Of a stretch of DNA of 41,673 nt, positions 2,770-35,246 are shown piece after piece. Location of the stretch: IMG/VR virus record IMGVR_UViG_3300031673_000155, positions 1-41,673 of that record; one strand, given 5' to 3'. The stretch comes from a virus. The stretch's first letter is position 1; every line of letters starts with the position of its first letter. The notes beneath the pieces are model-generated. The model was given only the letters and a program-made list of their open reading frames with translations. It made no database searches and was not told where the DNA came from. The translations under genes were made by a program, and so were the position numbers.

Positions 2770-3253
2770 TTGAGCCTCCTCGTTTAATCGTCCATATTAA
2801 GTCCTCTACTTCTTGTGGGGATTTATAGCCAGATAGCAAAACGATAATTTCATTCAGAGCCTTTTGACGTTGGAATATTTTGAGGTCGGGGTAGCTTGGG
2901 TTTGACCTTGAGTAGCAGGCGTCAAAAATCTTGTTTAACTCTTTCTTTAATTCCCCCCCTGCCTTGACCTGTCCGTAGCCGAGAGTGTGGAGCTTGGCGA
3001 GGAGTTCTTGCAGCATAGAACGATAATCTATTTCCAACCAAGCCTGCCCTTTTGTAAAGTCAAATTGGGCATCACAGTATTTGATGATTATTTGCTTTAG
3101 TAGTTTCTCTGTCAGCCCCTCTGGTTGCCCGGCTCTACACTTCGGGCATAACATCGGGTCAAGAAATCCATCCTCATCGTAGAAAATCTCCCCACACTTT
3201 ACACAGGTTAAGGTATATGTCGGTTGCTCGGTGGGTTGCTTCTTATTTACCAT
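2759..3253 (-). CDS. Zinc-ribbon protein, 164 aa
   Basis: Residues 17-39 carry CVKCGEIFYDEDGF...CPKC, a rubredoxin-type zinc ribbon of the kind found in many phage regulatory or replication-associated proteins. The remaining 120 residues are predicted helical and have no motif I know. It overlaps both neighbours by about 11 bases, which indicates coupled translation. The N-terminal QPTEQPT segment resembles the NEQPTEEQ start of the gene at 3243-3632, so the two ends may share ancestry. Confidence 0.7.
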   Translation of the reverse strand: MVNKKQPTEQPTYTLTCVKCGEIFYDEDGFLDPMLCPKCRAGQPEGLTEKLLKQIIIKYCDAQFDFTKGQAWLEIDYRSMLQELLAKLHTLGYGQVKAGGELKKELNKIFDACYSRSNPSYPDLKIFQRQKALNEIIVLLSGYKSPQEVEDLIWTIKRGGSNEG

Positions 3254-3632
3254 CTTCAGCCTCCGTTACTTTATAGATTGCCCAGAATAGAGCTAGGGCA
3301 GGGTCTTTATCTTTACCTTCACCCACAATTCTCCAAGTTGGATGGCAGGAAAGCATATCTGTAGCATCATTATGGTGCACTTTCTTTGTGATAATACATT
3401 CTACTAACTCAGCCAAATTAAGCCTAAATTCTATAGACCATTCACCTAGCTTCGGCACAGCATACTTGAATAGATTGTTGAGGTCTAACTCCACAGGTTG
3501 ACAAAAGGGATAGCCCCCTTTTCTTACAACCATATGATTCCGCTCTTTGCAGCTTTTGGGTGGCCGCTCTAATCCGCACCACTCCCAAAACTTCTTTAGC
3601 TGTTCCTCTGTCGGTTGCTCATTCTCTACCAT
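3243..3632 (-). CDS. Hypothetical phage protein, 129 aa
   Basis: This Trp- and Cys-containing protein has a C-terminal segment (SCHPTWRIVGEGKDKDPALALFWAIYKVTE) that resembles the end of small phage 'ABA sandwich' proteins, where a short charged loop precedes an alanine-rich helix. That resemblance is weak and not a firm call. Spacing to the next gene is 14 bases. Confidence 0.6.
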   Translation of the reverse strand: MVENEQPTEEQLKKFWEWCGLERPPKSCKERNHMVVRKGGYPFCQPVELDLNNLFKYAVPKLGEWSIEFRLNLAELVECIITKKVHHNDATDMLSCHPTWRIVGEGKDKDPALALFWAIYKVTEAEDGK

Positions 3633-3646
3633 ATCATTGACCTCCC

Positions 3647-4009
3647 TTAAAGTATCCGTTCTAATTCCGAGACACTTCTAACAATGTGATACTCGGCCCC
3701 CTGAGCTTCAACTAGAGCCTGGAATTCCTTTTGCTCTTTAGACTGTTTACCGGCGGGGGATTTAATCTCTATGAATACGCACATACACGCAAAGAGTTTA
3801 TCTGTAGCGAATAACTCCCCTCCCTCATGTAACACCAGATAGTCAGCCGTTCCTTTGGGGCAGCCCCTTATGCGTCTCCGTGTCTCTCCTCTAGTCTCTA
3901 TGAAGTCCCCAGAGTTCAACCGCAGGAATACCAGTTTGCCCAAGTTTTGTTGATAGGTGAGGAAATCATCCACCGCGCGCTTGATGTCAGCTTCTCTTAA
4001 AGTTGTCAT
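3647..4009 (-). CDS. VRR-NUC (PD-(D/E)XK) nuclease, 120 aa
   Basis: This is a short stand-alone nuclease of the VRR-NUC type, expected to cut structured or Holliday-like DNA. The core runs GTADYLVL (D near residue 56), then IEIKSPAGKQSKEQKEF (E-x-K near residues 81-83), then a helix and the strand AEYHIVRSVSEL. These are the signature elements of the family, whose phage members are about 90-130 aa. It follows the replication genes and overlaps the 50-aa gene upstream by 4 bases, so a role in recombination or replication intermediate processing is likely. Confidence 0.88.
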   Translation of the reverse strand: MTTLREADIKRAVDDFLTYQQNLGKLVFLRLNSGDFIETRGETRRRIRGCPKGTADYLVLHEGGELFATDKLFACMCVFIEIKSPAGKQSKEQKEFQALVEAQGAEYHIVRSVSELERIL

Positions 4010-32803: not shown

Positions 32804-34216
32804 CTACCTGCTCAACCTCGCAGGGGCTAGGGCGCACCTACAATTCTTGACTACGATGTTATTGCCGATGTATAATTGTTCTAAAGACTGGAGGTCGTAG
32901 ACGTGGCCAGAATAATTGAAATCCCTAACCTTGACCAGCTTATCAGGCGCTATCAGGCTGGAGAATCGGAATTGAAATTGTCTTGCGAGTTTGGTATATG
33001 TCGGCGCACAGTCCGAAGGCGTTTGCTCAAAGCGGGCATCACCCCTCGGAATGGTAGCCAAGCCAACATTATCAGAATGAACAGGCTCTCCCCCGCCGAA
33101 CGCTCTGCCTTGACTCATAACGCCCATGAAGCCGTAAGGGGTCGCTGTGTCCCTATAGCCGAGCGGGGGCAAAGAGCCAAGACCAGAGAAATCAAAGGGC
33201 TCAACATTTCTGCAATAGAAGTAGTATTTACCGATATGTTGGAAGCCAAAGGTATTTACAATATCACTCACCAGAAAGCTATCGGGGCTTATAATGTCGA
33301 TATTGCCATCGAATCCCCCCGCATCGCCATAGAAATCTTTGGCGGCGGTTTTCATATGAGCAAGCACCATGCCCTTCTGCACCACAAGCGATTTCCATAT
33401 ATCCTCAATCAAGGCTGGACTGTAGTCATAATTTGGGTCGATGCTAGACGCTATCCTTTGGCTATCGAGGCAACTAATTATGTGGTCGCCCTCATGCAAC
33501 GACTTAGCTCTCATAAAACCGCGCGGAGTGAGTATCATGTGATTAGGGGTAATGGTGAGCTTGTGCCCTCTCTCAGTGGCAATTTCAATTGCCTTCCCGT
33601 TATAGAAAGCCCGACTGCCCGCGATAGTAAGGGGCGCTTCTATTCTAACATCCGGTAGCAAACAGTTAGGATGGGCAGGTGGTCTATCATGCCCGCTACT
33701 AAAGGAATCGTCTATCGGTATCACGCCATCCCCTTCATTGCCAGCACAGATAGGACAAGGGTCGCTTGCTACCCACTCTTTGCCCTCTATATTCATTTCC
33801 TCAGCGCGGTCCAGGAAGGCTTGAGATAGGGCGTCATTGGTTTCGGTGCGGGCGATGGTCTGTGCCCTTCCCTTTGACATATCGGTAAAGGTGTGGCGTA
33901 GGTCTGAGGTTATCCCCGGCACGCCCCTCTTATTGAGTATGCCGTCTGAGATAACTGTCTTCAGCCTCGATATAGTCTCCTGGTTCATATTCTTAATGAG
34001 CCAGCCTGCACGCTCTGAGGCGTACTTGATAGCGGCTGCCATCGGCGGCCCTTCATAAGGCACACCTGCCCATTGCATCATCTGAGCCGAGCCGACCATG
34101 TAAATCATCGCCAGATGCCCGTTCAGCCTGGTAAAGTAGCTCTGGGTAATGACTCTTAGGAACGGCGCCAGTATATCGTCTGTCTCTGTACCTAGTGCCT
34201 CTTTAATCGTAGTCAT
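32804..34216 (-). CDS. MuF/SPP1 gp7-like head morphogenesis protein containing an intein, 470 aa
   Basis: The host protein is the portal-associated minor head protein. Residues 1-184 are its N-extein (SKGRAQTIARTETNDALSQA, then DPCPICAGNEGDG and HDRPPAHPN). Residues 459-470 (CRCALAPARLSR) are its C-extein, and joining them restores the typical HPNCRC ending of a 196-aa protein. Residues 185-458 are an intein: Cys1 at 185, block B TITPNH (221-226), block F HVYDLQSLEQLYIG (438-451), terminal VVKN with Asn458 and Cys+1 at 459. The usual penultimate His is Lys. No LAGLIDADG or HNH motif is in the sense reading. Confidence 0.9.
   Translation of the reverse strand: MTTIKEALGTETDDILAPFLRVITQSYFTRLNGHLAMIYMVGSAQMMQWAGVPYEGPPMAAAIKYASERAGWLIKNMNQETISRLKTVISDGILNKRGVPGITSDLRHTFTDMSKGRAQTIARTETNDALSQAFLDRAEEMNIEGKEWVASDPCPICAGNEGDGVIPIDDSFSSGHDRPPAHPNCLLPDVRIEAPLTIAGSRAFYNGKAIEIATERGHKLTITPNHMILTPRGFMRAKSLHEGDHIISCLDSQRIASSIDPNYDYSPALIEDIWKSLVVQKGMVLAHMKTAAKDFYGDAGGFDGNIDIISPDSFLVSDIVNTFGFQHIGKYYFYCRNVEPFDFSGLGSLPPLGYRDTATPYGFMGVMSQGRAFGGGEPVHSDNVGLATIPRGDARFEQTPSDCAPTYTKLARQFQFRFSSLIAPDKLVKVRDFNYSGHVYDLQSLEQLYIGNNIVVKNCRCALAPARLSR
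32847..32876 (+). promoter_or_regulatory. Sigma-70 promoter for the antisense endonuclease
   Basis: TTGACT (32847-32852), an 18-base spacer and the perfect -10 TATAAT (32871-32876) lie inside the intein's last codons on the opposite strand, 26 bases before the endonuclease GTG. Confidence 0.75.
32903..33658 (+). CDS. HTH + Vsr/DUF559-like homing endonuclease candidate, antisense inside the intein, 251 aa
   Basis: GTG start with GGAGGT at 32890-32895, seven bases upstream. Residues 11-46 form a resolvase-like helix-turn-helix (LKLSCEFGICRRTVRRRLLK). Residues 104-180 follow the Vsr/DUF559 nuclease pattern: AIEVVFTDML (Glu106), AYNVDIAI (Asp133), IAIEIFGGGFH (Glu144, His151), then LNQGWTVVIIWVD. 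The acidic residue often found after the His is replaced (ALLHHKR). It lies wholly within the intein coding segment and reads codon-for-codon opposite it. The Vsr-like EDxHD family is known to include homing endonucleases, some near split inteins. Homing of this intein into intein-free MuF genes is the likely role, by inference. Confidence 0.82.
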   Translation: MARIIEIPNLDQLIRRYQAGESELKLSCEFGICRRTVRRRLLKAGITPRNGSQANIIRMNRLSPAERSALTHNAHEAVRGRCVPIAERGQRAKTREIKGLNISAIEVVFTDMLEAKGIYNITHQKAIGAYNVDIAIESPRIAIEIFGGGFHMSKHHALLHHKRFPYILNQGWTVVIIWVDARRYPLAIEATNYVVALMQRLSSHKTARSEYHVIRGNGELVPSLSGNFNCLPVIESPTARDSKGRFYSNIR

Positions 34217-34443
34217 TTATCTTGACCCCCGAGACATTTGCCATCTGCATCTAGGTGAACATCCATACAGGAGCAAGCATTAGCGGGACTTCTATCAGCG
34301 ATTTTTACATTCCACCTGCAATCCTCATTGTCACAGGACAGAGATACCTTTTTGAGTTTGCATCCACCGCCCTCTAACCAATGAGGGCACTCCCTTGCCA
34401 TACATATATAACGCCCACCCACTTTCACCCAAGTGCAACTCAT
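34213..34443 (-). CDS. Cys-rich protein (DUF1540-like end), 76 aa
   Basis: Ten Cys occur in 76 residues: TWVKVGGRYICMARECPHW, then LSCDNEDCRWNVKIADRS, ACSCMDVHLDADGKCLG. The second half resembles DUF1540, a short repeat of Cys pairs of unknown function. It links the methyltransferase and MuF genes by 4-base overlaps on both sides. Metal binding is likely. Confidence 0.65.
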   Translation of the reverse strand: MSCTWVKVGGRYICMARECPHWLEGGGCKLKKVSLSCDNEDCRWNVKIADRSPANACSCMDVHLDADGKCLGGQDK

Positions 34444-35246
34444 TCCCCCACCTTTTCTAACAACACTACGAAGATGTGGTGTTTTTCACCAAACTTGTCA
34501 TATTCCTTTTCATTATTTATATATGAGTCTAATACCTTAAATCCTAGTGTCTTCAATTGCTTAAGGTAATCTTTCCAAGCTACGGTATCCTCTGTCTTTT
34601 TCCCGTTCTTAAACTGCGTATCTCCATAGATATAAATAAATGCTACTCCGCCATCTGTGAGAACACGGTAAACTTCAGGCAATGACTTTTTTAGATTAGT
34701 CGAATGTAACACCGACAAAGTAAAGACTGCCCCAAAACCTGCATCCTCAAAGGGTAATTTTTCAACGCTGGCAACTTTGAAGGTTATCTCCGCCTTCAAT
34801 TTTTTGGCATTGTTTGTAGCTAACTCAATTGCCTTCGGAACTATATCTATTGAAGTAACATCCAACCCAGACTTAGCAAAGAGAATCGAATCGCGTCCGT
34901 TCCCGCAACCTACTTCAAGAACACTTTTTATCTTATGGGCTTTCATTAAGTCTACAAATTCTTCTGCGAACTGAGATGGTTCAAGGTCTTTTGCCCAATG
35001 AGGAATCCCCTTCTTGTATTCAGCTTTCCAATCAGCAGGGGTCATTACCTCAGTAAATTCGGCATATTTGTTATATAATCGGTTAAGTGCCTTATAAGGG
35101 AAACCATCGGACAGAGCCTTGAAGTAGCCCCGCATATCCTTCTCGAAGTCGTCAGCCAGTTTTAGGTTCTTGGTCGATAGGGGATTACAGGGTAGTTTAT
35201 CTTGAGCCTCTTGGAGTAGTAGGTCTAGTTCATTTGCTAGTGTCAT
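34440..35246 (-). CDS. Class I SAM methyltransferase with N-terminal extension, 268 aa
   Basis: Residues 108-215 are a Rossmann methyltransferase: motif I VLEVGCGNGRDSILFAKSGL, acidic motif II end VTSIDIVP, then FGAVFTLSVLHSTN and LTDGGVAFIYIYG. The substrate could be a small molecule or protein; the DNA-type DPPY or PCQ motifs are absent. The first 95 residues are helical (LDLLLQEAQDKLP, YFKALSDGFPYKALNRLYNK) and do not belong to the enzyme core; they could tether it to the virion. It lies between portal and MuF genes, an unusual place for an enzyme. Confidence 0.85.
   Translation of the reverse strand: MTLANELDLLLQEAQDKLPCNPLSTKNLKLADDFEKDMRGYFKALSDGFPYKALNRLYNKYAEFTEVMTPADWKAEYKKGIPHWAKDLEPSQFAEEFVDLMKAHKIKSVLEVGCGNGRDSILFAKSGLDVTSIDIVPKAIELATNNAKKLKAEITFKVASVEKLPFEDAGFGAVFTLSVLHSTNLKKSLPEVYRVLTDGGVAFIYIYGDTQFKNGKKTEDTVAWKDYLKQLKTLGFKVLDSYINNEKEYDKFGEKHHIFVVLLEKVGE

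Follow-up and report, generated by a model that had tools for sequence, protein, structure and literature searches.

A virus record of 41,673 bases from IMG/VR, the whole stretch of which is called the window here, very probably carries a mobile intein whose homing endonuclease (HE) is encoded by an antisense gene that would be expressed independently of the host gene of the intein. Comparison with related loci makes it probable, though a shade less so, that the element belongs to an undescribed and widespread class of mobile inteins in which splicing and homing are encoded on opposite strands. Such elements are probably present at hundreds of phage and prophage loci in many bacterial phyla. 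Their host genes would be those of MuF head proteins and of one dCMP-type deaminase subfamily or more, and the nuclease would have its start codon, Shine-Dalgarno site and promoter within the conserved splicing blocks of the intein. The phenomenon is larger in extent than was first claimed in the initial annotation, which was made from the window alone.

The HE reading frame lies entirely within the intein, and the two frames are codon-aligned, with position 1 of the sense codon opposite position 3 of the antisense codon. The HE overlaps 92% of the intein and stops two codons short of Cys1. The initial annotation had placed the promoter, the Shine-Dalgarno site, the GTG start and the stop of the nuclease within the intein borders, with about 92% of the element coding on both strands, and the coordinates obtained here agree with this.

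Coordinates of the intein, its host gene and the antisense nuclease gene in the window
Feature	Position	Strand	Evidence or remarks
MuF-like head protein, intein-containing host ORF	32804-34216	-	470 aa
N-extein of the MuF-like head protein, 184 aa	33665..34216	-	Pfam Phage_Mu_F 7e-8; 85% identity over 170 aa to the intein-free MuF of L128
Intein, 274 aa	32843..33664	-	Intein_splicing 8.3e-9; exact empty site in L128; AlphaFold2
C-extein CRCALAPARLSR and stop	32804..32842	-	Translation; matches CRCALAPAKLKK of intein-free L128
Antisense homing endonuclease gene (HE), 251 aa, GTG start opposite the block F His codon	32903..33658	+	Family alignment, Pfam, AlphaFold2, Foldseek
HE domains: helix-turn-helix, about residues 10-61; PD-(D/E)XK, about residues 104-215			
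Sigma-70-type promoter TTGACT-N18-TATAAT	32847..32876	+	In the intein block G codons; 11/12 matches
Shine-Dalgarno GGAGG	32890..32894	+	8 nt 5' of the HE start; opposite the block F Asp-Leu-Gln codons

The element was confirmed, from its sequence, as a complete intein in a MuF head protein, and it is predicted to splice. Translation of 32843-33664 gives the borders PPAHPN|CLLPD...VVKN|CRC, running from Cys1 to Asn274 and followed by Cys+1, and the motifs of a class 1 Hint-fold intein are present (Cys1, TPNH in block B, the terminal Asn274 and Cys+1). Block F reads GHVYDLQ and the intein ends in VVKN, so that the penultimate residue is Lys in the subgroup of the window, not the usual His; HN, SN or KN is found among relatives. 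The host reading frame matched Phage_Mu_F in Pfam at 7e-8, over the Pfam cut-off, and Intein_splicing at 3.8e-8, and the intein alone matched the latter with 35.9 bits against a cut-off of 35.8. In agreement with the initial annotation, no endonuclease domain was found in the sense centre by Pfam profile search, and AlphaFold2 predicted residues 1-131 and 222-274 to be folded and residues 132-221 to be disordered. A mobile intein with an in-frame endonuclease was rejected on the basis of this missing match and of the disordered, nearly neutral stretch 132-221. An RNA intron was also rejected, since no intron family was found by Rfam at the locus (the sole match was a sub-threshold L20 leader, E 0.52) and the element continues the host reading frame without a stop and contains intein motifs.

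Upstream of this gene, MuF is apparently split in the window (34213-35246, minus strand). A class I methyltransferase (34440-35246, minus strand; Methyltransf_11 2.5e-20) is fused to about the first 59 residues of an intact MuF as in L128, a Cys-rich ORF of 76 aa (34213-34443, minus strand) follows, and MuF restarts at 34216. This order points to an insertion into MuF, about 1 kb in length.

The antisense strand encodes a protein with an N-terminal helix-turn-helix and a Vsr-like PD-(D/E)XK domain. As a single sequence, the HE of the window matched MTES_1575 (7.8e-6) and DUF559 (0.003) in Pfam, both under the curated cut-offs; at the level of the family, MTES_1575 was matched by 55 of 56 members. 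In the family alignment, E106 and D133 are invariant, E144 and H151 are at least 90% conserved, and Q124 is also conserved. The family profile matched the solved structures 3hrl (3e-5) and Vsr 1cw0 (0.0015), and I-Bth0305I weakly (0.077). The AlphaFold2 model has a pLDDT of 85, with values below 50 at residues 224-251 only, and its top solved matches in Foldseek were Vsr (probability 1.00) and I-Bth0305I (0.99), with modest E-values of 0.007-0.03 (best 0.0068). The nuclease fold proposed in the initial annotation was thus recovered by structure prediction, and its description of a 251-aa HTH and Vsr/DUF559-like protein was borne out by the alignment. Fold and conserved acidic residues together support a Vsr-like PD-(D/E)XK homing endonuclease, for which cleavage is predicted.

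To date, the same arrangement has been found through several searches. When viral contigs were searched by the conserved HE motifs alone, ignoring the intein, 455 stretches with a relative were obtained, and the best 80 were retrieved. The sense frame opposite the HE was free of stops over the match in all 80 of these best viral loci, and the other two antisense phases contained several to many stops. Removal of near-duplicates, with the window and isolated phages counted in, left 64 loci, some with intein borders placed by motif rules, and nearly all had a MuF gene with the insertion at PxHPx|C...N|CxC. Of 55 intact cases, 53 have the HE entirely inside the intein, and the median distance from the HE stop to Cys1 is 2 codons. 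By tblastn, 123 phage records were matched at E<=1e-3; the matches that were examined are antisense in head-protein inteins, except for a free-standing copy in Acinetobacter phages. Isolated phages with the arrangement infect Salmonella, Pseudomonas, Gordonia and other hosts. A single-sequence query (P0001) gave no match in genome contigs, but the family profile matched 23 contigs, 20 of which have the same arrangement, so that homologous inteins with an open antisense frame were found both in the best 80 viral loci and in 20 genome contigs. The prophage hosts are Actinobacteria, Chloroflexi, PVC, Peregrinibacteria, Alpha- and Gammaproteobacteria, Firmicutes, Gemmatimonadota, Cyanobacteria and Bacteroidota. 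In one subfamily (L155 and L157) the host gene differs: the intein with its antisense HE is inserted in a dCMP-type deaminase (Pfam dCMP_cyt_deam_1), within the PCxxC motif.

Some of these loci have further features. The deaminase protein of L155 (KX853510, locus 1165-2517) carries the annotation "head morphogenesis protein", a label that looks as if it was driven by the intein. A Scytonema contig (L177) contains an ORF of 930 aa with two intein C-terminal motifs, possibly two inteins in one gene, and an antisense HE occurs at only one of them. Likewise, one Anaerolineaceae contig (L161 and L176) has two inteins about 3 kb apart, with an antisense HE at the MuF-site one only. None of the intein-bearing phage records examined has an annotated antisense nuclease CDS; in the record of Escherichia phage Snoke the intein is annotated and the nuclease is not.

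The nearest MuF gene to that of the window (L128, 85% over the N-extein) is intein-free and has the exact empty site PPAHPN|CRC. The inteins nearest to that of the window have an HE that is 62-73% identical and a host MuF N-extein that is 31-52% identical. In the phages Jersey and LSPA1, the inteins are 96.6% identical in DNA and the N-exteins about 69%, and the Jersey exteins are 93% identical to those of the intein-free HBW_1. The intein-containing gene was covered by 69 of 498 records of Jerseyvirus and relatives, and most of the listed others gave a two-piece alignment that skips the intein. The intein-free alleles and the discordance between intein and extein identities show, at the level of sequence, that the element is mobile and has moved horizontally.

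Relatives of the HE that stand free adjoin intein-free MuF genes in Acinetobacter phages (L119, 455-1348) and in a Thermoleophilia contig (L137, about 2980-3672), in both cases convergent with MuF and at its 3' end. L119 matched the HE profile with an E of 3e-26 in hhalign, gave no significant domain match in its Pfam search, and has 12 stops in the antiparallel frame over its length. These free-standing genes are possible ancestors of the HE or escapees from inteins. Their position beside MuF, like the mobility of the intein, lends indirect support to the predicted specific cleavage of the empty insertion site.

In the proposed mechanism, the two functions of the mobile element are divided between the strands of one DNA segment. 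Splicing is encoded on the minus strand, by the intein of the MuF head protein, and homing on the plus strand, antiparallel to it and codon-aligned, by a gene for an HTH and Vsr-like PD-(D/E)XK endonuclease with a putative promoter of its own. The nuclease would be produced from this promoter of host type, probably early, and would cleave MuF genes that have no intein, at HPN|CRC or close to it. Double-strand-break repair off the intein-bearing copy would then insert the element, and protein splicing would restore the capsid protein. Homing nucleases that are active in competition between phages are known. With this precedent, the HE could instead be a real nuclease that mainly cuts the intein-free genomes of rival phages and homes only secondarily, and the host-type promoter and the free-standing versions beside MuF would suit such a weapon of exclusion. 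However, the precise confinement of the HE to the intein and the movement of the inteins among divergent MuF genes point to intein homing. Exclusion as the main role is therefore improbable, although the two roles are compatible and not mutually exclusive.

For an independently expressed homing nuclease, the signals upstream of the HE frame are of interest. The pattern TTGAC-spacer-TATAAT has one match in the 41.7 kb, the HE promoter at 32847-32876 (TTGACT at 32847-32852, N18, TATAAT at 32871-32876), against a chance mean of 0.05. Among the 64 loci, 38 have a sigma-70-like promoter with at least 10 of 12 matches in the 90 nt upstream of the HE, some relatives have no recognisable promoter there, and in 58% the promoter is stronger than under synonymous resampling (P<0.05). 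The HE start codon lies opposite the block F residue before VYDL, which is His in 51 of 64 loci and Gln in two others; of the 11 that remain, 8 have the His of the intein two residues further upstream, and their start codon has shifted along with it. Aligned upstream regions show that GGAGG derives from the codons of Asp-Leu-Gln in block F, and the Shine-Dalgarno leucine codon is CTC in 52 of 56 cases versus a background of 17%. Ordinary inteins of the same bacterial genomes have no His at the HE-start position and no HE similarity. These patterns indicate that the promoter, Shine-Dalgarno site and start codon of the HE, from which the gene would be expressed, are under selection within the intein codons.

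The signals also bear on whether the HE was formerly functional and is now inactive in the phage of the window. Decay does occur in the family: the HE frame is broken and the intein open in L043, L044, L046, L049, L058 and L073, and L165, whose intein occupies the MuF site, keeps an open sense frame while its HE has decayed: the antisense frame contains six stops, the residue at the start-codon position is Val, and the start codon is missing from its usual place. However, the start, Shine-Dalgarno site, promoter, frame and all conserved catalytic positions are intact in the window, and in the relatives closest to it the HE is under purifying selection. Inactivity in this phage is thus less probable still than a role mainly in exclusion.

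The initial annotation had cautioned that long antisense frames often arise by accident in the codon-aligned phase. The caution was fair, as some ordinary inteins from the same bacterial genomes as the relatives have an open antisense frame, albeit without HE similarity. To estimate the contribution of chance, the intein protein was held fixed while synonymous codons were resampled by phage usage (2000 samples), and an HE profile built without close relatives was used for scoring. The mean was 10.7 antisense stops, none of the 2000 samples was stop-free, and the maximum HE-profile score was 195 versus 358 observed. In the reverse null, with the HE fixed, a mean of 9.4 sense stops was obtained, again with 0 of 2000 stop-free, and the intein score reached a maximum of 232 versus 317 observed. 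Across 55 loci, the median expectation was 7.3 antisense stops, and the frame could be open by chance in a few.

Substitutions were also classed by whether they change the HE, the intein, both or neither, using six gapless relatives and 19 disjoint pairs. In the centre of the intein, the ratio of HE-silent, intein-changing substitutions to the converse was 1.73 (95% 1.60-1.87; 19 disjoint pairs, counts uncorrected for saturation). The same ratio was 0.50 (0.36-0.65) at the C-terminal end of the intein and 0.67 (0.58-0.80) at its N-terminus (last 55 codons). Sense residues 132-221, which are predicted to be disordered, are unconstrained among HE-changing substitutions (1.02) and give 0.71 among HE-silent ones. 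Sense residues 66-131, predicted to be folded, are under partial constraint (0.59-0.66); opposite them is the catalytic core of the HE (0.32-0.36). In the tail of the HE (residues 224-251, predicted to be disordered), there is hardly any constraint among intein-changing substitutions (0.84). The DNA is shared out between the two proteins: the intein ends constrain the sense strand, and the centre constrains the HE. Purifying selection on a conserved plus-strand frame, another expectation of the initial annotation, is seen in these classes. All three conditions that the initial annotation had set for its own refutation, on homologous inteins, nuclease fold and the sense reading of the centre, were checked, and none of them applied. 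That the antisense ORF is a mere by-product of the codon-aligned phase, the one that opens most easily by accident, with the intein as the only real coding constraint, is very improbable and was rejected by codon resampling and substitution classes, despite the open frames of some ordinary inteins and the sizeable chance in a few relatives; central substitutions spare the HE and not the intein, its expression signals are under selection, and free-standing relatives exist.

An antisense nuclease in a mobile intein can be compared with several known systems. Standard mobile inteins, with LAGLIDADG or HNH endonucleases, likewise have terminal splicing domains with the endonuclease between them, a conserved site in an essential gene and intein-free alleles. 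However, their endonuclease is part of the spliced polypeptide, whereas here a distinct opposite-strand gene encodes it, with a putative promoter and ribosome site of its own. Nuclear group I introns carry antisense homing endonuclease genes, e.g., L2066 of Didymium squamulosum, for which expression of I-DsqI and its cutting of the intron-free site have been shown (PMC9548176). The likeness lies in a homing endonuclease gene antisense to a self-splicing host element; the host there is a ribozyme intron in rDNA without protein-coding constraint, whereas here both strands are coding and conserved. The ShiLan domain is a hidden HNH endonuclease in phage methylases, out of frame and without splicing domains (PMC11855218). 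It shares the in-frame insertion in a phage gene and an endonuclease in another reading frame, but is HNH, on the same strand and without a detectable ribosome site; the present nuclease is antisense, Vsr-like and within a true intein, with a promoter and Shine-Dalgarno site. An insertion of the ShiLan type was rejected, as the nuclease is on the opposite strand and splicing domains are present. The PD-(D/E)XK fold of the HE nuclease domain is common to I-Bth0305I (PDB 3r3p) and Vsr (1cw0, 1vsr); I-Bth0305I is listed as the protein of a mobile intron, whereas the present family, with helix-turn-helix repeats at the N-terminus, is encoded inside inteins in antisense. A literature search, with preprints and most subscription journals outside its scope, returned no description of an antisense nuclease in an intein, and its nearest published cases were ShiLan and the antisense endonucleases of group I introns.

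In bacteria and phages there are few documented cases of long, fully nested antisense genes that encode two conserved proteins, and such pairs are usually dropped by annotation pipelines. Across very divergent sequences, these inteins pair a known function (splicing) on one strand with a predicted one (homing) on the other, which makes them a good natural test system for dual-strand coding, its limits and its origin. The arrangement would decouple the expression of the nuclease of a homing element from that of its capsid host gene. The HE family also constitutes a large pool of candidate site-specific nucleases. Finally, the findings suggest that some inteins thought to be endonuclease-free may carry an endonuclease in antisense.
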